A DNA stretch of 64,000 nucleotides from a bacterium (GCA_015075175.1 JABTUV010000004.1:186001-250000); one strand, 5' to 3'. Counted from the stretch's first letter, positions 19,155-46,207 are shown. Notes: generated from the letters alone by a model not told the origin. Numbers and translations are program-made.

Positions 19155-20468
19155 CTAGAAATACTTGATGATCGACACGAGCAGCTGGTGCTGGTCCACG
19201 TCCATGCGCGCGCCGGGCACGTCCAAGACGTCGCCCCCCACGTTGCGCCCGAACCGCCAGGTGTAGGAGAAGTCCAGCGAGAGGGCCTCAGAGACGTAAC
19301 CGGACCCGACTGACACCCCGGCATAGTCGTCGGGATGGCGATGGCTCGGTTCGGGGTCGTAAAACACGCCGGCCCGCAGAGGAACGATCGCGCGCTCCGT
19401 GAAAATAAGATACTCCATTCCGGCGCGCACGGTGTAGGTCGGATCGATGTCCTCCTCGGAGGCGCGGCGACCGGTCACGGCGGAGAAACGATTGCCGTGA
19501 TCGTCCTCAAGAACAAAATCGTCCCACTCGGTGCGCGTCACATCCAACGAGGTCTTCAATGAACGCGTCCATTGGACCGCGGTTCCCACGCCGACAACCC
19601 AGGGGAAGTCCATCTCCTCCTTGCGCGAGAAGCCGGTGAGGACGGGATCGGCGCCGCCGCCAAAATCCACGGAGGTCGAGCGCTTGCGCTCGTGGCGCAC
19701 GTCGGCGGTGAAGGGCGACTTGAAGACGGCCCCCAGCGCAATCCTGGGCGTCAGCTCGTAGCGCAACCCCAGGTTGAAGTTCTCTCCTGAAAAATCCTTG
19801 TACACGTCGCGCATGAAAATCGTGGCGCCGAAAGCATCGGTCTCCTCGACCAACCCCGTCCCGTCGTATCTGACCGTGGACTTCCAGGCGTAATCCCGTC
19901 CCAGGGGATCGCGCCAGACGTTGAGCGTCGCCCCCACGGACAGCTTGTCGGAAAGACGCATCCCGAACGCGGGCGAAAAAGCATACAAGTCGCCCTCCTG
20001 CTCGAACTCATATTCGCCCTCCTGCGAGAGTAGCGCGTTGCCCGTGTTGAAATCAAAGGACAGCTCGCGATCGAAGCCATAGAGGCGTTGATAATTGAGC
20101 GAGACGACCATGGGGCGGTCGAACAGCACAAAGGGATACGAGGCATTGGCGAAGTTGATCCGGTAAAGGTCGATGCCGCTGTCGCCGTCGCTCTCCGGAT
20201 GGACGTCGGAGAAGAGGTCCTCCAGGCGAAAGAAACCTTCGCCCACGATGGACATCTCGGGCCGTTCCAGCTGCGCCAGGCCGGCGGGATTCCAGGAGGA
20301 GGCGGTCGAATCGTCGGCGATGGCGATGAAGGCGCCGCCCATGGCGGTCGCGCGCGCTCCCGAGCCGATGGGATTGGGCGAGGAGGTGATGCGGATGTCC
20401 GGCGGCTCCACGCTCCACGTCGCGCCAGTGAGCAGGGAAACCGTGAGAGCAACTATGAGCCGTCTCAT
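19155..20468 (-). CDS. FadL/OmpP1-like outer-membrane transport protein
   Basis: 437 residues with a Sec signal peptide ending GATWS. The N-terminal hatch region GSGARATAMGGAFIAIADD is followed by SSWNPAGLAQL, the hallmark of FadL/TodX (PF03349) proteins, then repeated barrel strands to a C-terminal aromatic, IIKYF, as required for BAM insertion. Known members carry long-chain fatty acids or hydrophobic compounds across the outer membrane; many paralogues have unknown ligands. Its ATG overlaps the stop of the upstream CsgG-like gene by four bases, so it is the last gene of the sigma-CHAT operon and is probably the outer-membrane part of that system. Confidence 0.85.
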   Translation of the reverse strand: MRRLIVALTVSLLTGATWSVEPPDIRITSSPNPIGSGARATAMGGAFIAIADDSTASSWNPAGLAQLERPEMSIVGEGFFRLEDLFSDVHPESDGDSGIDLYRINFANASYPFVLFDRPMVVSLNYQRLYGFDRELSFDFNTGNALLSQEGEYEFEQEGDLYAFSPAFGMRLSDKLSVGATLNVWRDPLGRDYAWKSTVRYDGTGLVEETDAFGATIFMRDVYKDFSGENFNLGLRYELTPRIALGAVFKSPFTADVRHERKRSTSVDFGGGADPVLTGFSRKEEMDFPWVVGVGTAVQWTRSLKTSLDVTRTEWDDFVLEDDHGNRFSAVTGRRASEEDIDPTYTVRAGMEYLIFTERAIVPLRAGVFYDPEPSHRHPDDYAGVSVGSGYVSEALSLDFSYTWRFGRNVGGDVLDVPGARMDVDQHQLLVSIIKYF

Positions 20469-22427
20469 CGCGTCATCACCTCCAGTCCGGCGCGAATCGA
20501 AACCGCTTGTGCGGGATCGTCCAGGCGTCCCCGACTCCGACTCTCTCTCACGGCATCGAGCCGTCCGCGACCTCTTATCAGCGTGTCGAACTCCTCTTGT
20601 TCAAAGACGACGACGGGCAGGCCCTCGCGCAGGCCGTCGCGGGCGCCCTTGTCCATGACGAACGCGCCGCCGTCGCGGCTCTCCACGATTCTGCCGCGCA
20701 CGACGGGAAAGCGGTACTCCAGTTCCAGGGCCAGCGCGCGCGCCAGCATGTCCAGCGTGCGCGTGTCGGTACGTTCGGCAAAGACGTCGGCGGCGGCATC
20801 CACCTCGCCGGTGCGCACGTCCACGAGGCGCGTCTCCGCCACGATGCCGTCGCGGCGCACGCGAATGGTGCCGGTGAGGACCTCGTCGGCGACGGCCAAT
20901 CCCGCCAGCCGGGTGGCATAGCGCGGATCGGCGAGACCTGAGAGCGAGAGCTTGCGCTCCAGAAGCACTTTCTCCAGCTCTCTGCGCGCCAGGATGCCGA
21001 AACGCCCACGCTCGGACAACTGGAATTCCAGGCCGCGATTGAACGACTGGCAGAGAGACAGCGGCGTGTCGCTCTCCTCGGCGGGCAAGAGATCGGCGAA
21101 GGCCAGGCGCAACCGCTCGGCGCGCAGCGGTTTCTCCGCGTCGATGCGTTCCAGCGTGACGCTACGCGAGCGACGCGCGCCGCTGGACGTTTCCATGGCA
21201 ATTTCGATGGTGTTCCTGCCTTCCGACAGCTCGACGCTGTGGCTGAACGTGAGCGTGCGCGCGCGCGGCAGGCCCACAATGGGTTCGCCGGCGATGGAGA
21301 CGCGGACGATCTCGCTTTCCGCCGCAAGATCAAGATGCAGCGTGAAGTACTCCGTGCCGACGCGCGCCGGCGGTTGCCGCAGCAGCCGGATGGAGGCTTC
21401 TTCGCCTTCCAGCGCGGCGACTTTGGTACCGAGGGCAGGGAACCGAGCCGCGGCCCGAGGCGCGGCGCGGCGCCGCCGTTCTCCGCCAAAGCTGATCGCC
21501 AACTCAGGTTGCATTGCCGGCACGGTCGCGGGCGCGCAGCACGGCGCGATCCGCGCCCCTCGCCACGGCCGTGAATCGACCCTCCTGCAGCGCCACGCGG
21601 CGATCATCCAACGTGAGTTCCACCGCGCCGAGATTGTCCGTCGCGCGTCCCGAAATTTCCCAACCCTCCACCAGTCGCGTCTTCTTCTCGACGACCAGGA
21701 ACGGCCCAGTCTGGTCCAGGAGTATCGTCGCGTGGTGGATGGTCGTGTTGCCGACCAGGTCGACGGCGGTGATCGTGAGCGGCGTCTGCGCCGCAGCGAG
21801 CGCCATTCTGACTTCCAGCGGAACGGCTTTGCGTGGTTCGCGCACGTAATACGACGTATCGTTGACGGCATAGGCGGCGACGGCGTGGTCGTCCTGCATG
21901 ATTCCCCGCAGCATGAAGTGCGTCGATGAACTGTACCAGGTATCGCCGCCGGGCAGCGTTACCGTTGGGGGACGGGCGTCCCGACCGCCGCGTCGCAGCG
22001 CCTGCCCGCGCACCTGGGCGAGAAAATAATGCGCCTTGGCCGTGTCCTCGTCTTCCAGCGAGCGCAGGAGTTCCCGCTCGGCCTCATCCAGCCGATTCTG
22101 GCGATAATAGACGACACCCAGCTCCCGATGGGGAAAATACTCGATGAAATGCATGCCGTAAGTCTGCGCGCGGCGCTCTTCGCCGTCGTTCTGGGCCAGG
22201 GCGGACAGCAGGTCGCGCTCGGCCTCCTTCCAGAACTCGCCGTCCGCGAAGGAGAGGCCCCGCTCGTAGTAATTCCACCAGCGGGCGTTGAACGTGCCGC
22301 GCGTCACGCCGTAGCGCCGGCCGTCCTTCACGTAGGGAGAGACCTGGGAAGTCTGGCAACCGCAGAGCGGGAGACAGGTGGCGGCGATCACGAAGAGGAG
22401 AGATGGGAGGGCGGACCGGCGCGGCAT
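20465..22427 (-). CDS. TPR lipoprotein with a CsgG-like domain, one frameshift
   Basis: The product starts at ATG 22427 with a lipoprotein signal ending LPLCGC. Residues 45-150 contain tetratricopeptide-like helices (YYRQNRLDEAERELLRSL). Middle segments are beta-rich, with ITAVDLVGNTTIHHATILLD and a similar ARDRAGNAT. The frame ends at 21504, but the protein plainly continues in another frame from 21513 through a CsgG-like domain: RFGILARRELEKVLLERKLS and AVADEVLTGTIRVR. The downstream part has no export signal of its own, so a one-base error or mutation near 21505 is preferred over two genes. CsgG forms outer-membrane secretion pores or signals envelope state. It overlaps the genes on both sides. 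Confidence 0.75.
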
Positions 22428-25096
22428 CAGTCAATCTGCTGGATGCGGGCGCCGACCAGGAGCGAAGCGCCGCCCGCGTCCAGGAGCGCGCGACGCGGTT
22501 CGACCGCCCGAACGCTCAGGGTAACCCCGGCGGCGCCGACCGGCCGGAAGCGCGTCTCCGGGGTAACGCCGTGGTCGCCGCCCACGTTGCACCACCATCC
22601 GTCCGGCGTCTGTTCGAGCAGAAGGCCGCGGATGGGCAGCGCCTCCCGCAACTTGGGCGAAAGTTGCGCCATCATCCCCGCCGCCGTTTCACGCGGATCG
22701 GAGGACAGCTCTTGCCGGAGGATGAAGAGCGTCTCGCTGTTCTCCCAAACGGCCGAGAGCGACAACACGGATTTTCCGCCCTCAACCGTGAGGCTGGGGA
22801 AGAACCACAGGCGAACCAGTTTCAGGCGCGCCGTCCGCTCCGCTTCGGCGGGATCGGACAGCCCCAGCTTGTTGAGGCGAATCTCGTTGAGCAGCCTGTC
22901 CAAGTGGCGCCGTTCCAGGACCGACAGGCGAGGATGGGCCAAGAGCGCCTCTTCCAGGTATTCCATCACGGCGATGTCCATGCCCCCCGCGGTGTTCTCG
23001 GGGGCCGCCTCCAGCGCGTCCAGGACCGCCGTCAGGACGGGCGAGGACCAGTCGTCGAGGTCGGACGGCGGGACGGGCGGGGCTTTCATCAGTTCGGCGA
23101 GATCGGCCAGCAGCACGTCGATGCGGGCGGTGCGTTGCTCTTCGGCGCCGGCCAGGCTGCGGTTGCGCGCGGCGCGCACGAGACCCGCCAAAACCGGATC
23201 GGCCGGCCGCGTCGCCGCCTGTCTCATAAAGATCGCCCAGGCGCCGTCGTAATCGCCCAGCCGATAGAGCTCCAATCCCTCCACATACTCAGATGTCACG
23301 GCGATGGGCGCCACCCCTTTGTACTCAAAGGGGTGTGGAGTCCCGGTCGGGTAGAGAGTCCGGTTCAACCAGAGTCCGGCGGGAATGGCGGCCAAGACGA
23401 GCGCCGCCAGCCCGACGCCTACTAGCCAGGTAGGTGCGGCGGCGCGATGGACGATGGGCGCAGCGGAACGCGTGAGGGCGGGCGAAGCGCCGGCCGTCGC
23501 GGTCTCCGCTGACTCTTCGCCGTAGAGCATCCGGTCTGCCGGGGCCTCCGCCGCGCCGAAGAAAATGCGGCGCGGATCGCCGTACAAGACATACGCCGCC
23601 CAGATCAGGTGCGCCTCTCCGCGGTCGGCGGCCAGCCGCTCCCGCGCTGACAAGAGCGCCTTGCCGACGGATTGTCGGACGCCAACCGGCGATAGAAGAG
23701 TACCGCCATGTCGCCGCTGGGCGCATCCAGCACGTCCCAGAAGGTTCCCACGTAATGCTGCACGCCGGCCAGGAGAAAAGCCTGGGCCAGGCCGTCGGCC
23801 GTCTTTGCCGGCTCCCAGGCGCCCGTCCTCCGGACTGGCAGGCATTGCTGAACACGAGGGCGGAAAGCGCTTCTCCCCGCCCGCCAGCCGCCCGGTAATG
23901 TCGGCGACGCTGAGCATCCGTCGGCGAGGGCCAGCTGGTCTCCTCGGGCTTGCCTTCGACGTAGCGGGCATGGCCGCAGTAGTGCAGGATGTCGTGCTCG
24001 CGCAGGACCTCGACCGCCTCGCGCCGCTCGACCGCGCCGTTGAGCCAATGCACTCCATGCGCGGCGAATGAAGGAATCGTTGCGCACGACCAGGCCCTCC
24101 TGGCTGGCGGAGGCCAGGTCGCCGCGCGGATTGGACAGGACCAGCATCGAGGGCGCAGATGGGCGCCGGTCGCGGTTTGCCCAGCGGCCGCTCGGCCGTG
24201 CGTACCACGCGCGCCCTACGGCAAACCGCCGGCACAGGAAGTCCCGTCCGTCGTACAGGCCCCCGGCACCCCGACGGCGCGCTCATTCAGGTTGAGCACC
24301 AGGTAATCCACCGTCAGCCGCCCCAGGCGCTCCTTGAACTCGCTGTTGAAAAGCAGGTCGGCACAGCCTCGGTCCCGTGGCGGCGCAGTTGCTCCAACGT
24401 CTCGCCGTTGCCGCCGCCGACGGCGTTAGCGGTCCGAAGGTCTGCTGGAAGGCGGCGACCAGATGCGAAAGCCGCTCCGAGTCCAGCGGCAGCCGGGCGT
24501 AGTACGTGAGCGTGCCCGCGATTTCGTCTCCTCGTGAAGCGAAATCTTGAGGCTCTGCTGCTCCATCAGAATGTCGAAGGCGGCTTCCTGTTTTTCGACC
24601 TGCCCGCGGGTCGGCGTGGCGGATTCCACTCCACGCGATTCGCGCGGAGTCGAGGGGCGGGCCGGTTCTCTGGCCCGGTCGTGCGCGCGCGTGGGCGGGT
24701 GCAAAGCCCCAAGGTAGGGATCGAGGAAGCACGGGCCGCGGCGGAGACCAGGATTTCGCCGTCGCGGGCGGATGCGGCGATGCGGCGAGCACGGGCCTGG
24801 CCCGCTTCCGCTGCGCCCACGTCCACGCCCACGGCCAAGCCCACGGCTGCCACCGTTCCGCGCGCTTCGTTGAGCCGCGCGACTACGGTCTGCATCCGGC
24901 GCGCGCACTCGACGGCGGCTATTGGGCCGACGAACTCCGCCTCCAACACACTTTCCGATGCCGCGCGCAGCTCGGAAGCATGGCGTGCCAGGAGGGCCGA
25001 AAGCAGACGTTCCGCCGCCGCGCGCGCCGCGTCGGCGCCGGCGCCGGCGTGGATGTCCGCGTGCAACCAGGTGACCGGGTGAATGGAAACCGCCAT
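22427..25096 (-). CDS. Cyclase-like / CHAT protease / transmembrane / CsgG-like protein, multiply frameshifted
   Basis: About 890 codons from ATG 25096. N-terminal 150 residues: nucleotide-cyclase homology domain (SVLEAEFVGPIAAVECARRMQ; RRIAASARDGEILVSAAA) that appears to lack metal-binding aspartates. Next, near 23830-24000, a CHAT caspase-like domain with His in DILHYCGHARY and Cys in VFSNACQSG, then GVQHYVGTFWDVLDAPSGDMA. One membrane helix (LVGVGLAALVLAAIPAGLWL) lies near 23370-23450, and a CsgG-like domain (SVLERRHLDRLLNEIRLNKL) ends the protein. At least five frame changes fall between about 23,600 and 24,700, so a single protein is inferred rather than read directly. It overlaps the next gene as TGATG. 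A family H palindrome is read in frame at 23308-23336. Likely a membrane-bound effector protease. Confidence 0.7.
23308..23336. repeat. In-gene palindrome, family H, copy 2
   Basis: ACCCCTTTG and CAAAGGGGT flank TACT. On the minus strand it reads CACCCCTTTGAGTACAAAGG and is very close to the element at 3684-3707. It is translated in frame as HPFEYKGVAPI just after the membrane helix. Confidence 0.65.
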
Positions 25097-25124
25097 GGGC
25101 TTGGCTCCGGCAGCAGCCCGCCGG

Positions 25125-25835
25125 CTACTGCACGACGACCTCCAGCATTTCGGACAAACCGAATTGATCCACGACCACGATCCAGAAGGTTCCGGGCGCG
25201 ACCGGCCGAAAACGGCCCTGCCCGCGCCGGATGGGAACCGACTCCAGCGTGCCGCCCGCATGGTCCCTGAGTTCCGCATGGCCGTCGATGGGCGCGCCCG
25301 TCTCGCGGTCGCGCACCGCCAACGCCAGCTGAGTGCGACTCTCCGGCGTGGGAGAAAGGCATACCTCCAAGTCGAAGTGCAGCAGCGACCGGGTTACACA
25401 CAGGGCCTCGGCCGGCGATCCGCTCCCGCGCACCGCGGCCGCCGCCGGTTGCAGAGCCTGCCAGCCCTCTTCCAGGCAGCGGAAGCCGTGCGCCACCCGC
25501 TCGACGACCAGCCGGAACAGGCGTCCAGCGGCGTTCACTCCGGCCATCTGGGACGCCCCGGTCAGGCCGCCGGGCGACAGGCGCCGGGCGCGCAGCTCCG
25601 ACGCCATGCAGCGCGTCAGCTCATGCCGGCAATAGGGACAGGCTTCCAGCTCGCCGATCAGCCGCTCTTCTTCTTCCCACGGCAGCTCGCCCGCGGCGAC
25701 CAGCCACAGGGTATTCTCCCATTCGGGATTCCTGCTGTGTTGGCAGGGTTCAGGCGCCACGGCCCGGGTCCGTTTCATCATCGTATCCTCGATTTTCGCC
25801 CTGAGGGCCTCCAGAATCGGGTCCAGCGGGTCCAC
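25125..25835 (-). CDS. Zinc-finger (anti-sigma-like) protein with a C-terminal beta domain
   Basis: 236 residues from GTG 25835, preceded by AGGAGAAGGA; the open frame upstream runs into a family C repeat and is unlikely to be coding. Residues 30-80 hold PCQH and then ACPYCRHEL, with the frame GELPWEEEERLIGELEACPYC resembling the zinc-binding anti-sigma (ZAS) fold, though the usual His four residues before the first Cys of the pair is absent. The last 90 residues form a small beta domain (VRDRETGAPIDGHAELRD, then FWIVVVDQFGLSEMLEVVV). It sits between a sigma-factor gene and the CHAT gene, 28 bases from the latter, which is where an anti-sigma factor would be expected. No membrane helix is seen. 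Confidence 0.62.
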   Translation of the reverse strand: MDPLDPILEALRAKIEDTMMKRTRAVAPEPCQHSRNPEWENTLWLVAAGELPWEEEERLIGELEACPYCRHELTRCMASELRARRLSPGGLTGASQMAGVNAAGRLFRLVVERVAHGFRCLEEGWQALQPAAAAVRGSGSPAEALCVTRSLLHFDLEVCLSPTPESRTQLALAVRDRETGAPIDGHAELRDHAGGTLESVPIRRGQGRFRPVAPGTFWIVVVDQFGLSEMLEVVVQ

Positions 25836-25897
25836 TACGTCCTTCTCCTCGCCTATAGGAAAATATGCCCCGGTATTCCCACTCCGTGCCGCCGGCT

Positions 25898-25985
25898 CGG
25901 AGTACAGGCCCTTCAGCCTGCTCCCTGCCGGCAAGCGCAGCACGCTGCGCCACTACGCCGCTTGCGCAGCACGCTGCGCCACTAC
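25898..25985. repeat. Family C unit followed by a GCGCAGCACGCTGCGCC tandem repeat
   Basis: A unit GGAGTACAGGCCCTTCAGCC at the left is followed by two direct copies of GCGCAGCACGCTGCGCCACT with an 8-base spacer. The right end supplies the stop codon region of the sigma-factor gene. The gap between that gene and the zinc-finger gene holds nothing else. Confidence 0.7.
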
Positions 25986-27048
25986 TCCAGTGATTTCTTC
26001 AACAAAGTCAATCTGTTACGCAAGGTCTTCTCCGGCGTCTTCAAGAGCTCCGCCAGCTCCGAGAAGGGTAACGCCACGAACACCCGATCGGAATTCAGGC
26101 GCTCCCTCAGTTCCCGGCGCTTCTCCTCCCACTTGTGGGCGCGCCGAAAAAACGCCGCGTATCGATACAGGCATTGCTCCTTCTCCGGCAGGCGATACCC
26201 GCGAGCCTCTCGTACCCGTCGGTCCAGGTCGCCCAAGTTGAGCTGGCGGGCCTGAGCTTCACAAATCTCCAGCTCCTCCCAATTCCCGCCAAGATGAAAG
26301 AACTCTTCCTTGGTCGTTTGTACCAGGTGCTCAAACCACTGGGCACGGTCGGCGGCGACGCCGAGCCGCGCCAGGAGTTCATCGTGGCGGGCGAAGCGGG
26401 GGCTTTCGCGCAGCGCCTGCCGCCGCGCCGCGAGGTCTTTTTGCATCTGGCTCCGGCGGCAGCCGTGCAATTCCGCCAGCCAATCGAGGACCTCCGCCGG
26501 CGGCGGACCGTAAGCCAGGTACAGCAGCGACAGTAGCGCCTGGTCGCGGATCGGCAGGCCGTTCATCCAGGCACGGTCCGGTTCCTCCAAGCCGTCGGGT
26601 TCCGGCGGGTGGGGATCGGGGAGATTCTCAACCCCTTGCTCCCACACGGTCTCGACGTGCTTGCACGCGGTAATCGACTCCAGCCGCGACTGGCGCTCCT
26701 CGGCATCCCGGCATTTCAGCCAGTCCCGCACCGTGTTGACGACCTGAAAGGCCAGGAGCCAGTTGCGCAGGCTGCCGCGCGCCCGGTCGAACTTCTCAGG
26801 GTTCTGCCGGAACGTCTCCCGGTCCCAGAGCCGATCCAGAATGTAGTAGACCTTGTTGTAGTAATCCCGTCCGGGATGGTAGCTGACGCCGTGGTCAGGA
26901 CGGCGCGGATGCGGAACTCGATGGGCAGGCCGTAGCGAATCCAGAGGACCTCCGGACCTCTTGAAACCGGGACTCAAAGTCCTCGCGGAGGTAGAGGGAC
27001 GAGGTCCTCGTCGCTCATCTGGAAGAGTTCGGAAGCAGCTTCGGGCAT
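25982..27048 (-). CDS. ECF-like sigma-70 factor with an unusual C-terminal extension, 5' frameshifts
   Basis: Open from about 26977 in one frame. Upstream, ATG 27048 begins MPEAASELFQMSDEDLV, then LYLREDFESRFQEV and WIRYGLPIEFRIRAVL continue in shifting frames, so two or three indels lie between 26900 and 27020. Region 2 is visible as EKFDRARGSLRNWLLAFQVV then NTVRDWLK. A region-4-like helix pair follows (LLSLLYLAYGPPPAEVLDWL, RRSQMQKDLAARRQAL), then about 130 residues of helical, charged sequence not typical of ECF factors. It heads the leftward operon of zinc-finger, CHAT, CsgG-like and FadL-like genes and is probably their dedicated transcription factor. Confidence 0.65.
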
Positions 27049-27433
27049 GAGGAGCCTGTAATCCCGCAGCCAGGGCGCCCCGCGCGCCGGTTTCCGGCGC
27101 GCCCGGGCCGTCCGCTGATGGCGAAAGCGGCGGCGCTTGCGGCGCCGTATTCCGCCTCCGCCCCCTGTTGCGCCCAAAGATAGCATAACCGGCCGCACAC
27201 TTCCCGTGTGAACTGTAAAAATTTCCTCCAACCCATTTGCTTTAGGAATTTTTCTCCGTTTCTTCCTACCTGAAATCGAGCAGCCAAGTTGAGTGGGATG
27301 TCACTTTTCCCTTGGACGAAGGGGAGGGGCCGCGATACCCTTGCGATGTGCCGTGCGACTTGGATGCGTAACGAAGCCCGCTGGGGACAGCGATAAATCG
27401 AAGGCGAAGGTGGCAAAGCCGCACGGTGCAATC
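27049..27433. promoter_or_regulatory. Divergent intergenic region between the sigma-factor and C13-protease genes
   Basis: The part from 27140 to 27265 contains AT-rich tracts and the inverted repeat CACAC-(TTCC)-GTGTG around 27197-27210, which may be an operator for the leftward operon. The part from 27290 to 27433 precedes the large secreted protein. I found no riboswitch, RNA gene or certain promoter here. Confidence 0.35.
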
Positions 27434-30400
27434 ATGCCCGGAACCAGGCCCGGCGCCCTGTGGGGGGTCGTGTTGTGCCTGTGCTTCGGCGCCGGGCCGG
27501 TCGCCGCGGGTTTCCCGCCCGGCGCCGGCGACCTTTACCAGGAGAACTTCAATTCCGGCCGCGCCGACTTCTGGTCCAATCCGGGCGACGCCTGGCGGGT
27601 CGTGGGCGGCGAACTGCGCCGCACCGATCTTACTCAGATACCGTTCCCCCGCGCCGTGTACGTCGGCCCCGGCGCAACCGACTGGACCCACTACCTCTTC
27701 GAGTGCGATTTCCGCATCCTCAGCGCGACCCGCGGCAATAACGAGGTCGGTTTTTATTTTCGCTTCCGGAATGACAACAACTATTACAAGCTGTATTTCG
27801 AGTGCATCAACGGCGGCTGCGCCCCGCGCGCGCAACTGATTCGCGTCGTCGGCGGGAGCGTGACCTATTTATTGGCCGATCTGGAGTGGGCGTTGGGGCA
27901 CGGCGTCCATCGCGTGGCCGTGGCGATTGCGGGCGCGCGGCTGGACGTGTTTATCGACGGGCTGCCCATCTATAACGGCACGGACGGCGGTCTGACCGCC
28001 GGCACGATCGGGGTCGTGGCCGACAAGATCGACGCAGCCTTCGACAACGTGCGCGTCTCGTCGCTTGTGCCCGGCCCGGAACCGCCGCCGCGTCCCGTGG
28101 TGGACGGCCTGGACCCCTACGAAGGCTCATTTCACCAGCTGATGACCGTCCACGGCGCGGGCTTCGGCCTCTCGCGTGAGACGGCGGAGGGCTGGGTGCT
28201 TTTCGGCAGCGTGCCCGCGCTGGTGGTCTCGTGGAGACCGAATTCGATCGTGTGCCGCGCGCCGGAGGTCGAGAGCGCGGCTGTGCGCGTGGTCGCCTTC
28301 GACCAGATCAGCGTGGGCGACGCGCATCGCTTTCGCATCCTGCCCCCCAGCGTGCTTTCCGCCGAGCCTTCCCCCGCCAGCGTGGGCGACGTGGTGGTCC
28401 TGCAGGGAGAGCACTTCGGCTTTGCCCCCGGCCAGTTTGGCCGCGTGCGCGCCAACGGCCTTCCCGCCGTCATCGTCTCCTGGCAGGACGATGAGGTGCG
28501 TTTTGTCATGCCCGACGTCTCCGGCGACCACGCCACCCTCAAGTTGAACACCGTGGCCGGGGAGGACACGGCCCACGTGACGATATTGCAGCCGATTTAC
28601 ATCACCTGCGAGGTCGCGCCGCCGCGGATCACTCTCGGGGAGGGTCTGACCTTTTCGGGGAGCGTGACGACTCGCGGGGAGGCGCCGCTGGCGGCGCGGA
28701 CCGTGCTCTTGGGACTGGTCTCGCCACGCGGCGAGATGCGCACGGTGGGCGCGACCATGACCGGCTTTGACGGCGGCTACCAGGACACCCATGCCGTCTC
28801 CGCCCAGGAGCTGCCGTATCCCATCTCCGAACCGGGCGTCTGGCAGGCGGCGGCCTTCACGCCGGAGGACGGTCGCTACCGCGCGGCGTCCGTTCTGTCA
28901 CCGTCGTTCATGGTCGATGCGATCGCCTGCCGGCTGGTCCTGGAGACCTCGCCCGCCCGCGTGGTGCACAACGGGCGCGCGGTCGAGTTTGCCGGCCGCC
29001 TGATGCTTACGCCCAACACGCCCGCGGCCCTGACCTTCGTGGAAGGCGCGACCGTCGCCGTGACGGCCCTCGCTCCCGGCGGACAGATACGTGCCTGGGA
29101 AGCGGAAGTCTCCGGCGGTACGTTCATGTGCGCGCCCATGCTCTTGGACCAGCTGGGGCCGTGGCGCCTGTCCGCCCGCTTTCACGGCAACCGCGGCGTC
29201 CTGCCCAGCGCGACGGCCGAGCTCGCGGTGCAGGCGGTCGCCGAATTGGGTTACGCCATCGTGGTCGCGGGACGCGTTCCCTCCGGCGAGGGCCTGGAAG
29301 AACACGCCCGCACGACCGACAACGTGGTGTCCCGGCTTCTGGCAAGTAACTTCGCGCCCGAGAATATTCTTTACCTCAATGGCAAGGGCAAGAACCCCGG
29401 CGGCGTTGCGCAGGCTACGGTAAGTAAAGCGGCGGTGGAACAGGCCATCACCGGTTGGGCGGCGGAGCTGATGGCTCAGGCGCCCGCGCCGCTCTTTCTC
29501 GTCTGGGTCAACCACGGCGACGTGGTCGATGGCACGGGCCGCTTTCACGTCGGCGACCAGTTGGGGCAGGGAGCGGACGGCTATGTCACGCCGGCGGAAT
29601 TGGACGGCTGGCTGGACGGCCTGGAGGCGGAGCTGGCAGCGCGCAATCCGGCCCAGACGGCGGGACTGCCCATCGTATTCGTGTACGGCGCGTGCCACTC
29701 GGGCAGCTTCCTTCCCACCCTATCCGAGCCGGGCAAGCGCCGCATCCTCCTGGCCAGCAGCGACGCTTACGAAGTCTCCTACCGCGGTCCGGCCGACCGC
29801 CTGCCGCGCGACGGCGATTACTTCATCACGCGCTTCTTCGAGTTCGCCGGTGATGGGCACACACTATTGGACAGCTTCCGCATGGCCTCCGAAGAAGTGC
29901 GGCAGTACACCCGCAATCGCGACGGCCGGCCCGTCAACGGACGCGGGCAGAACCGCTACTCGGACGGCTCCGACCAGCATCCGCAGCTGGACGACAACGG
30001 AGACGGCGTCAGCGAGGCGATTCCGCTGGCGCATGACGGCGACTGGGCCGCCCGCCTGCGCCTTTCCGGCCTCTCCCCCGCCGACGCCTCCGACCGTCTG
30101 GCGATTACGTTGCACGCGACCGACTACTTCCTGGCGCCCGGCGGTCCCGACCCCTTGTTGTGGGTCACGGTTTCCGACCTTTCCAGATTGAGGCAGGCCT
30201 GGATCGAAATCCGACTGCCGGGAGCGGCGCCGCCCCCGGCTGCGCTATCCGAGTCCTTTCAACGCGTCGAGGCCATGCCGCGATTCCTGGCCGAGGGCGA
30301 ACTCGGCGCCAGCCTGTGGTGGATGCACTACGAACGCGAGGACTTCCCCGGTTTCACCGAGCCGGGTGAATACCAGGTTTACTACTTCGTCGAGGACGTT

Positions 30401-31213
30401 TCGGGTCGGCTGGCCCCCGTGCGCAGTTCCCGCGTCTTTCGCAATCGAACGGGGAATCTGCCGCCCGAGCCTTTTTCGCTGGTCAAACCGGCGGACAACG
30501 CCGTGGTGGACGTCTTCCCTTGCTTTGAGTGGCAGGACGCCGGCGATCCGGACGGTGACCCGGTTTCCTACGTCATCCTCCTGTCCGAGTCGGCGCAGTT
30601 TCCTTATGGCACCATGGTCGTCGAGACGGGCGGCGAACCGCTGCTTTTCGCGGGTCGGAAGCTGCCGCTGGCGGACGGCCGCGCCTACTACTGGAAAGTG
30701 ATCGCACGCGACGCCTATGGCGCCACACGCGAGAGCCGGCAGGTGTTCCGACTGCGGACCGACACCGTCAACGATGTCTTCGGCTCGCTGCTCGTGCGCA
30801 TCTACGACGGTTCCACCGGCGGGCGGGTCCCCAACGCCTCGGTCCGGGTGCAGCCGGAGGCGCCGCTGTGGCCGTCCTCGACGGGTTCTTTCGTGGGCCT
30901 GGGCCTGCCCATCGACAGCGACTACTGGTTGACGGTCGAGGCGGCCGGATACCGGCGTCCCGAGCCGCGGCGGGTGGTCATTCGAACCCCCGACCAGCCT
31001 GCGGTGGCCGACTATTACCTCTACCGGCCGGGCGACGTGGACGAGGATGGGCGCATGGGGCCGGAAGACCTCTTGTCCTTCTCCCAGCAGTGGCAACGGC
31101 GGCCCGGCGGAACCGCCGACCTCAATCAGGACGGCATCTGCGACGAGGCGGACCTGCTGCTCTGGTTCGTGGACGCGGAACGAATACGCAACGAACCCGG
31201 CGCGAAGAAATAG
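27434..31213 (+). CDS. Secreted multidomain C13-type (caspase-fold) cysteine protease with a dockerin
   Basis: 1,259 residues from ATG 27434; signal peptide LWGVVLCLCFGAGPVAAG. Order: LamG/jelly-roll-like domain (25-215), two IPT/TIG domains (220-385, each with a GxGFG or GEHFG turn), Ig-like domains (390-590), peptidase domain (about 600-850), fibronectin-like domain (NLPPEPFSLVKPADN onward), carboxypeptidase-regulatory-like domain, and a type I dockerin at 1195-1255 with two Ca-binding loops (GDVDEDGRMGPEDLLSF; DLNQDGICDEADLLLWF). The peptidase has the clan CD pair: His694 in LVWVNHGD and Cys754 in VYGACHSGSF, like legumain-type C13 enzymes. It probably cleaves proteins outside the cell or at its surface. 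No cohesin gene lies in the window. Confidence 0.85.
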   Translation: MPGTRPGALWGVVLCLCFGAGPVAAGFPPGAGDLYQENFNSGRADFWSNPGDAWRVVGGELRRTDLTQIPFPRAVYVGPGATDWTHYLFECDFRILSATRGNNEVGFYFRFRNDNNYYKLYFECINGGCAPRAQLIRVVGGSVTYLLADLEWALGHGVHRVAVAIAGARLDVFIDGLPIYNGTDGGLTAGTIGVVADKIDAAFDNVRVSSLVPGPEPPPRPVVDGLDPYEGSFHQLMTVHGAGFGLSRETAEGWVLFGSVPALVVSWRPNSIVCRAPEVESAAVRVVAFDQISVGDAHRFRILPPSVLSAEPSPASVGDVVVLQGEHFGFAPGQFGRVRANGLPAVIVSWQDDEVRFVMPDVSGDHATLKLNTVAGEDTAHVTILQPIYITCEVAPPRITLGEGLTFSGSVTTRGEAPLAARTVLLGLVSPRGEMRTVGATMTGFDGGYQDTHAVSAQELPYPISEPGVWQAAAFTPEDGRYRAASVLSPSFMVDAIACRLVLETSPARVVHNGRAVEFAGRLMLTPNTPAALTFVEGATVAVTALAPGGQIRAWEAEVSGGTFMCAPMLLDQLGPWRLSARFHGNRGVLPSATAELAVQAVAELGYAIVVAGRVPSGEGLEEHARTTDNVVSRLLASNFAPENILYLNGKGKNPGGVAQATVSKAAVEQAITGWAAELMAQAPAPLFLVWVNHGDVVDGTGRFHVGDQLGQGADGYVTPAELDGWLDGLEAELAARNPAQTAGLPIVFVYGACHSGSFLPTLSEPGKRRILLASSDAYEVSYRGPADRLPRDGDYFITRFFEFAGDGHTLLDSFRMASEEVRQYTRNRDGRPVNGRGQNRYSDGSDQHPQLDDNGDGVSEAIPLAHDGDWAARLRLSGLSPADASDRLAITLHATDYFLAPGGPDPLLWVTVSDLSRLRQAWIEIRLPGAAPPPAALSESFQRVEAMPRFLAEGELGASLWWMHYEREDFPGFTEPGEYQVYYFVEDVSGRLAPVRSSRVFRNRTGNLPPEPFSLVKPADNAVVDVFPCFEWQDAGDPDGDPVSYVILLSESAQFPYGTMVVETGGEPLLFAGRKLPLADGRAYYWKVIARDAYGATRESRQVFRLRTDTVNDVFGSLLVRIYDGSTGGRVPNASVRVQPEAPLWPSSTGSFVGLGLPIDSDYWLTVEAAGYRRPEPRRVVIRTPDQPAVADYYLYRPGDVDEDGRMGPEDLLSFSQQWQRRPGGTADLNQDGICDEADLLLWFVDAERIRNEPGAKK

Positions 31214-44599: not shown

Positions 44600-45479
44600 A
44601 TGGCCACGCCGCGCGTAGTTCAGAACGTGTGCGGGCCGTAGCACCACCGGGATAGCCAGCTCGGCAGCCTGGCCCGCCAACCGCTCGGCGTCGGCCTCGT
44701 CGCGTGCCAGCGCGATGAGGTTGGAACCCGGCCGGTCATCACCGCGCGCCAGGGCCCCACTCGAGGAGGCGCCGCTTCGACTCCTCCAACACGGGGTACT
44801 GTGAGAACACCAGCGGTTCAAAGGCGTTGAAGAGGTGCGCTCCGAGAACGGCAAGATCGCCGGAGGCCAGCGCGGACAGGAGAGTTGAGACGGGTGGGTG
44901 TGGGCGCTGCTCATGCGCCGGCAGCGCCGCGTAAAGTTCGGCGGTGGGGCAGTGCATGGGCGGCGAGACCAGCGCGTACCAGAAAGGTCGCGCGGGAGTT
45001 CGCAGGGGAAGCACGCGTTCGCCGCGGCCCTCGACCAGTGCGGTTCCGCCCGCCAGCGCAAAGGGCACCTCGCTGCCCAATCGCATCCCCCACTCCAGCA
45101 GTTGCGCGCGGCTCGCCCGTACCCGCAATTGCCGGCACAGCTCGCGCAGCGTGGCGGCCGCATCCGCCGATCCGCCTCCCAGTCCCGCCCCCATCGGAAT
45201 GCGCTTTTCCAGTTTTACATGCCAGTGAGGCGAAATCTTCGCCTCGCTCCTCAAGAGCTCTATGGCCTTGACGACCAGGTTGCTTTCCTCCACGGGCACG
45301 TCGGGACGATTGCAGCTGAGCGAGACGCCTTCTCCACCGGGAGAGAACTCCAGTTCATCGCAGAGGCTGACGGTCTGCATCACCGAACGTAGATTGTGAT
45401 AGCCGTCGGAACGCCGGTCGAGAATGTCCAGAAACAGATTGATCTTGGCGGGCGCAACGGCCGTGATGGGGAAGATCAT
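44600..45479 (-). CDS. ispE: 4-diphosphocytidyl-2-C-methyl-D-erythritol kinase, frameshifted
   Basis: Start ATG 45479 overlaps the ispD stop by four bases. The GHMP-kinase fold is clear: APAKINLFLDILDRRSDGYH and PMGAGLGGGSADAAATLREL, then GSEVPFALAGGTALVEGRGE. The frame ends at 44739 in LLEWGPGAR, but the C-terminal ATP-loop (normally reading like SGSG) and the final domain are in another frame: RPGSNLIALARDEADAERLA to RPAHVLN near 44618. A one-base loss near 44745 explains this. Beyond 44618 no stop occurs; the frame runs through repeats to 44387. IspE makes the fourth step of the non-mevalonate isoprenoid pathway and should be essential, so the break is probably a sequence error. Confidence 0.88.
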
Positions 45480-46207
45480 GCCTGGCCTTCCGGACTTGGA
45501 GGGGAAGCGGGCCGTGTCCGGGCCGCAAGGAGGGCCTCCGCCAGCGCAAAATCGGCGGGATGTGTGATCTTGAGGTTGTCGGTTCCGCTCACGATGCAGC
45601 GCGCGGGGTGGCCGGCGGCGTACATGACCGTAGTCTCGTCGGTGGGAGCGGCAGCGTCGGCGGGCCAGCGGCGATAGGCGTCCACGAGCAGGTCGTAACG
45701 GAAGGCCTGGGGCGTCTGCACGGCCCATAGTCCCTCGCGCGGGACCCGCTCGCAGAGAAGGGCCTGGTCGTTGCTGCGGGAGAGCGTATCCGTAACGGGC
45801 GCGGCGAAGGTGGCGCAGCCGGCTTCCGCGGCCGCCGCCACGACCGCGTCGATGCCGGGCCGGGAAGGGAAGGGACGCGCCGCATCGTGGATGAGGACCA
45901 GCTCGGGCGGCGAGCCGGCCAGCGCGGCCAACAGGTTGCGCACCGAGTGGCTGCGCGTCTCACCGCCCAGAACCAGTGGCGGGCGGAACTTGGTCGCAGG
46001 GAACCGCGCCAGTACCGCGGAGTAACCCGGGCGATCTTCCGCGCGCACGGCGATCAGGATGGCGGAGATGGAGGGGGAGTCCTCCAGCGCCTCCAGGCTC
46101 CACAGAAAGAGGGGCTTGCCCCCGAGCGGCAAGAGCGTCTTGGAGGTATCGCCTCCAAATCTGCGGCTGCTGCCGGCTGCTACCAGAAGGGCCACGGCCG
46201 AGGGCAT
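45476..46207 (-). CDS. ispD: 2-C-methyl-D-erythritol 4-phosphate cytidylyltransferase
   Basis: 243 residues. The nucleotidyltransferase loop ALLVAAGSSRRFGGDTSKTL contains the conserved Arg and Lys; LVLIHDAARPFPS, APVTDTLSRS, WAVQTPQAFRYDLL and APTDETTVMYAAG are further IspD landmarks, as is the late NLKITHPADFALAE. It makes CDP-methylerythritol, the substrate of IspE encoded by the next gene, which it overlaps by four bases. The start faces away from rpsT by about 20 bases, suggesting one transcript. Confidence 0.95.
   Translation of the reverse strand: MPSAVALLVAAGSSRRFGGDTSKTLLPLGGKPLFLWSLEALEDSPSISAILIAVRAEDRPGYSAVLARFPATKFRPPLVLGGETRSHSVRNLLAALAGSPPELVLIHDAARPFPSRPGIDAVVAAAAEAGCATFAAPVTDTLSRSNDQALLCERVPREGLWAVQTPQAFRYDLLVDAYRRWPADAAAPTDETTVMYAAGHPARCIVSGTDNLKITHPADFALAEALLAARTRPASPPSPEGQA

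Follow-up and report, generated by a model that had tools for sequence, protein, structure and literature searches.

The leftward operon at positions 19155-27048 of the window (i.e. the whole 64,000 nucleotide stretch of DNA that was analysed) contains five genes that make up one system conserved across phyla. It is a real, conserved and apparently undescribed variant of the protease-controlled anti-sigma systems. The genes, all on the minus strand, are of the kinds and in the place given by the initial annotation, i.e. a sigma-like gene in the position of an ECF factor, a zinc-finger anti-sigma gene, a gene for a membrane CHAT protease, a TPR-CsgG lipoprotein gene and an outer-membrane barrel gene. 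The gap of 28 bases and the small overlaps of 1-4 bases between them are also as described there. Dozens of genomes have these gene families side by side, so the operon is not a product of chance, and since related genomes carry these families the kind of operon can be regarded as settled. On balance we think it probable that this is an envelope-to-gene signalling operon, in which a signal from the envelope leads the CHAT protease to cut the soluble anti-sigma and so release the sigma factor. We infer the direction of the signalling, the cleavage of the anti-sigma, the site of the cut and the sensing at the outer membrane from sequence and predicted structure.

The window comes from an uncultured lineage, with 14 genomes of its class in the collection; its relatives are deposited as 'Omnitrophota' or simply 'bacterium'. 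Conserved runs of all five families are found in Nitrospirota and 'Deltaproteobacteria', and partial ones in the class to which the window belongs. The class-mates have, in intact frames, a sigma gene, an anti-sigma of about 430 aa that is longer than that of the window and related to it only distantly, a cyclase- or kinase-CHAT-TM-TPR-CsgG protein, a TPR-CsgG protein and a barrel. With the TPR-CsgG lipoprotein as query, 84,980 genomes yielded 70 loci, most of them in 'Deltaproteobacteria', Nitrospirota and Hydrogenedentota. Outside the window's class 65 loci have a strong match, and 36 of these have enough flanking sequence; a barrel is present in 33 of the 36, a CHAT gene in 14 and a sigma gene in 13. 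Three orders are common: sigma-antisigma-CHAT-barrel-lipoprotein, sigma-antisigma-CHAT-lipoprotein-barrel (the order of the window, found also in L066, L067 and L182), and one in which the lipoprotein comes first. Co-occurrence of the genes in a conserved order, which the initial annotation had put forward as a test, is thus observed across phyla.

A search led by the anti-sigma, covering about 395 genomes in each of two phyla together with extra copies in genomes already examined, gave 21 new loci. A sigma gene adjoins the anti-sigma in all 21 and a CHAT gene in 19, and one of the two loci lacking CHAT stops at a contig end. The CsgG tail of the CHAT protein goes together with the envelope genes. 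Where the new CHAT proteins have a detectable tail a TPR-CsgG gene is nearby in 9 of 10 cases (the tenth stops at a contig end), while four of the five apparently untruncated tail-less CHAT loci have neither a barrel nor a full lipoprotein. In the fifth, L172, a barrel is accompanied by a short CsgG-like gene. When all genes of about 41 CHAT loci were clustered, no sixth widespread family emerged; only the five recur widely. We note that several loci of one class-mate (G005, L018-L021) have a sigma gene and an anti-sigma of about 430 aa with very long CHAT proteins of 1570-2080 aa. A barrel was not seen at these loci, which apparently form a second branch lacking the envelope parts.

The zinc-finger gene (25125-25781, starting at ATG; a GTG at 25943 is a possible start) was aligned with 35 relatives, nearly all of which adjoin sigma and CHAT genes. 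The profile of the family matches the solved ZAS factors RslA (1.7e-4), RsiW, ChrR, DdvA and RsrA, and the relatives match zf-HC2 at 2.9e-7. Their N-terminal domain is helical, is akin to those of the solved anti-sigma factors and holds a zinc site of the HxxxCxxC type. The zinc-finger protein that had been noticed in the anti-sigma position is thus a ZAS-type anti-sigma, with an added Ig-like domain. Some members have lost part of the zinc ligands, including that of the window, where the cysteine residues are kept (CxxC at 25629-25643) and Glu replaces His. No transmembrane helix is predicted in any of the 36 anti-sigmas, a few of which have borderline hydropathy, and a membrane-bound anti-sigma of the RIP type was rejected on these grounds. 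In the model of one relative the helical N-terminal domain is followed by a low-confidence linker (residues 102-118) and a C-terminal Ig-like sandwich, for which the fold matches are to generic Ig and FN3 domains only. Csx30 was not among the matches listed for the anti-sigma profile or the Ig-like domain, which excludes nothing.

The linker, variable as a whole, contains an arginine conserved in 35 of the 36 sequences, followed by G, S, N or A in every one. It is the most conserved of the 85 linker columns, the runner-up scoring 0.78. In the modelled relative it is residue 113, lying within a stretch with pLDDT below 50, although the model was built with 15 sequences so that the low score is no proof of disorder in the linker. 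The corresponding VRGS of the window (25422-25433) is the predicted cut motif. From the sequences, the conserved arginine with its small neighbour looks like a protease site; it could instead serve in binding the sigma factor.

The CHAT gene occupies 22427-25096, with a Pfam CHAT match of 1.6e-7 on one piece. The protease domain (23480-24543, placed by that match and by frame-aware alignment to relatives) has its histidine in HYCGH at 23970-23984 and its cysteine in SNACQSG at 23829-23849, in the same frame. The His-Cys pair, on whose presence the initial annotation had staked its reading, is therefore there, and almost every one of 47 CHAT relatives retains it; across 28 aligned domains it is invariant. 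The family matches CHAT (PF12770) in Pfam above the cut-off, and the domain was modelled with a pLDDT of 91; its closest folds are Csx29 (8eey, 1.4e-10), separase (1.5e-9), SAVED-CHAT, DdvA (5.4e-7) and gingipain R (RgpB, Z 20.7). Separase and gingipain R cut after arginine, and the conserved arginine of the anti-sigma linker is consistent with this. A single transmembrane helix at 23366-23428 is indicated by hydropathy, lying in the same place in most relatives (41 of 47 have such a helix), and is followed by a CsgG-like periplasmic tail (22427-23050). The tail scores 0.015 against CsgG in Pfam, and aligns with tails of relatives that pass the cut-off.

In the mechanism we propose, the soluble zinc-finger anti-sigma would hold the ECF-type sigma in the resting state. 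The barrel and the TPR-CsgG lipoprotein would sense a change at the outer membrane, and the periplasmic CsgG tail and the one helix in the membrane would carry the signal to the CHAT protease in the cytoplasm. This would then cut the linker between the sigma-binding zinc-finger domain and the Ig-like domain, probably after the conserved arginine of [VLI]R|[GSNA], and the sigma factor would be freed. The likely output is transcription, not bulk proteolysis, because the likeliest substrate of CHAT is the anti-sigma, although the protease could have some other substrate. Against the proposal stand the lack of a shared promoter motif before the sigma genes, the presence of CHAT or sigma at just a part of the lipoprotein loci, the occurrence of the two envelope proteins apart from CHAT, the distant anti-sigma of the class-mates and the possibly broken copy of the window. 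The initial annotation had suggested that the genes sense envelope damage or an invader and trigger proteolysis; the genes do form one conserved system, but transcription is the likelier result, and a tie to invaders is so far unsupported, with only weak domain matches in PADLOC (to the cyclase and CHAT); a defence role was ranked lower.

It is unlikely, in our view, that CHAT is rather an executioner, with the sigma/anti-sigma pair switching on the operon under stress and the protease then attacking other proteins of the cell. On that reading the anti-sigma would itself sense the stress through its zinc site, and the attack would serve suicide, envelope remodelling or conflict with phages or neighbours. 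ZAS anti-sigmas are able to act as direct sensors of oxidation (PMC8999054), CHAT domains are present in conflict systems (PMC10907252) and the weak PADLOC matches point the same way. Yet there are no recurrent phage-defence neighbours in about 41 CHAT loci, the partial loss of zinc ligands in some members (the window included) argues against sensing at that site, and both the conservation of the linker arginine and the presence of a transmembrane CHAT beside a soluble anti-sigma are better suited to cleavage of the latter.

The start of the CHAT gene (24730-25096) encodes a domain related to class III nucleotide cyclases, aligned with 29 relatives in which each of the catalytic residues (two metal-binding Asp, Asn and Arg) is kept in 28-29. 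In the window the first metal-binding Asp and the Arg are kept while the second Asp and the catalytic Asn are lost, so assignment of this copy as a class III nucleotide cyclase was rejected. The cyclase-like domain noted initially is thus real and is catalytically complete in relatives, but degenerate in the window. In most relatives the CHAT-borne cyclase may provide a second output or act as a regulator. A broader reading, in which the barrel and CsgG proteins drive the membrane CHAT, frequently joined to a working nucleotide cyclase, in a cross-phylum pathway outside CRISPR, with the soluble anti-sigma cut at the conserved arginine and with cyclic nucleotide and sigma release as linked outputs, is quite possible, and we put it forward tentatively. 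A gene for a cNMP-binding protein lies immediately upstream of the sigma gene in two loci (L051, 2175-3263; L179, 7973-8836); this is a hint, from few cases, of a second messenger fitting the cyclase domain.

The sigma-like gene (25982-27048) has a conserved position. The window gene has a region-2-like sequence, FDRARGSLRNWLL, at 26753-26791 and a C-terminal region-4-like HTH at 26009-26062, separated by an insertion of about 130 aa. Its match to TIGR02937 is weak (E=0.024), and against the profile of the relatives' sigma factors only the C-terminal HTH rises above controls (17.8 nats, compared with 12.3 or less). Direct searches of Pfam and PDB with the window gene gave nothing useful, and as a query across the window's class it matched itself alone. 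The relatives match TIGR02937 at 5.7e-20 and also match solved sigma factors, with ECF regions 2 and 4 by profile. The relatives are therefore ECF sigma factors by profile, while the gene of the window is recognizable as a sigma factor only weakly. When the regions preceding the sigma genes were searched for promoter dyads, no shared motif rose above shuffled sequences.

The barrel (19155-20468) belongs to the FadL/Toluene_X superfamily, matching Toluene_X at 9e-15 in Pfam. Matches to PorV_fam (NCBIfam, 1.3e-15) and BamG (4e-13) both fall below their cut-offs, and identity as PorV/PorQ of type IX secretion was rejected (57.9 bits, where the cut-off is 90). The lipoprotein gene (20465-22427; CsgG 1.8e-7 in Pfam) has a lipobox at 22356-22373, a YxKDGxxYGV..WWNYYxRG signature, TPR, Ig-like domains and a CsgG domain. 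In the lipoprotein tree the window is a long branch without placement, so the tree says nothing about gene transfer. The two envelope proteins also occur apart from CHAT. In five Hydrogenedentota loci (L069, L070, L072, L081 and L097) a Ser/Thr kinase gene lies directly before the lipoprotein and barrel, taking the place of CHAT and sigma, and these two proteins therefore have a role of their own; in Calditrichota a barrel and short lipoprotein are found alone. This replacement by a kinase, and the barrel beside 33 of the 36 adequately flanked lipoprotein genes, would agree with the barrel and lipoprotein being the main machine (for export, or for lipid or surface assembly), with CHAT-sigma or the kinase as interchangeable regulators of its expression. 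We consider that decidedly improbable; it does not by itself account for the CsgG tail on CHAT, and it does not contradict the envelope-signalling reading, with which it is compatible. A different part of the contig that holds the window encodes another protein, of 474 aa (L184, 7898-9319; G000 C34), with a CsgG domain (Pfam, 4e-36) and a carboxypeptidase-regulatory-like domain.

The copy in the window is divergent and possibly broken. Frame-aware alignment shows that the CHAT gene is not a single open frame, with at least seven frame changes over about 0.9 kb (from about 24440 to 23675). One frame change is needed in the lipoprotein gene near 21503, and there are frame changes near 26970 in the N-terminal part of the sigma-like gene. 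The barrel gene is intact, without a change of frame. The rpoB gene of the same genome is also intact, so the damage is local; either a dead copy or an error of assembly may account for it, the two looking alike. Decay into a pseudo-operon that does not work in this organism, a matter separate from the function of the family, is possible though not the reading we would choose. The shifted frames, the degenerate cyclase and the undamaged rpoB are as such decay would leave them. However, the frame changes are concentrated in the most GC-rich part, the flanking stretches, barrel and anti-sigma are all still open, the catalytic motifs are retained, and a local fault of assembly would give an identical picture.

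One of the closest known systems is the type III-E Craspase (Csx29 TPR-CHAT, Csx30 and CASP-sigma), which likewise has a CHAT protease, a sigma inhibitor and an ECF-like sigma in one locus, and in which Csx29, the closest solved fold to the operon CHAT, cuts the sigma inhibitor Csx30 (PMC10028731). Craspase is activated by Cas7-11 and target RNA, whereas no Cas family recurs in the operon loci; membership of type III-E was rejected on the lack of Cas7-11 in the locus, no family beyond the five recurring widely. Unlike Csx29, the operon CHAT carries cyclase, transmembrane and CsgG parts on the same protein, with envelope genes in the locus. In the CalpL/CalpT/CalpS system of type III CRISPR a protease also cuts an anti-sigma that holds an ECF sigma (PMC11417357), but CalpL is a Lon-type protease with a SAVED domain and responds to cyclic oligoadenylate. 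CHAT and subtilase genes lie near ECF54 sigma factors, for which proteolytic control has been proposed (PMC8999054); as described, those loci resemble the operon in having CHAT adjoining an ECF sigma, and differ in having no anti-sigma.

DdvA (PDB 8rot, 8rw5, 8rlz) similarly ties a ZAS domain and a CHAT-fold domain to a sigma factor. The two are joined there in one transmembrane protein, whereas in the operon they are separate proteins and the anti-sigma is soluble; a DdvA-type anti-sigma was rejected because ZAS and CHAT are separate genes in all loci having both. We know of no barrel or CsgG protein associated with DdvA. RseA/DegS and RsiW share with the proposed mechanism an envelope signal and proteolysis of an anti-sigma, but there the anti-sigma spans the membrane, where in the operon the protease does. 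No description of the five-gene set was found in the open-access full-text literature (CHAT with CsgG; CHAT with ECF sigma), in agreement with the initial annotation.

For most bacterial caspase-like CHAT proteins we know of no cut target, while here a likely substrate, cut site and outcome can be named from sequence. If the proposal is true, caspase-like proteases would be linked to ordinary envelope signalling outside CRISPR. Signalling from the outer membrane to the genes would gain a layout unlike the usual cascades of membrane anti-sigmas, with envelope-stress proteolysis reversed so that the protease rather than the anti-sigma crosses the membrane.

Two further features of the window may be noted. 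The frame of ispE (44754-45484, minus strand) has an apparent early C-terminal stop, possibly a further frame change in the assembly. The divergent neighbour of the operon (27293-31213, plus strand) encodes a secreted-looking protein of 1306 aa with a TIG domain, the only part confirmed by Pfam, and a dockerin-like end. It contains caspase-fold-like motifs (WVNHGD ... YGACHSG), and is a possible second clan CD protease beside the operon.
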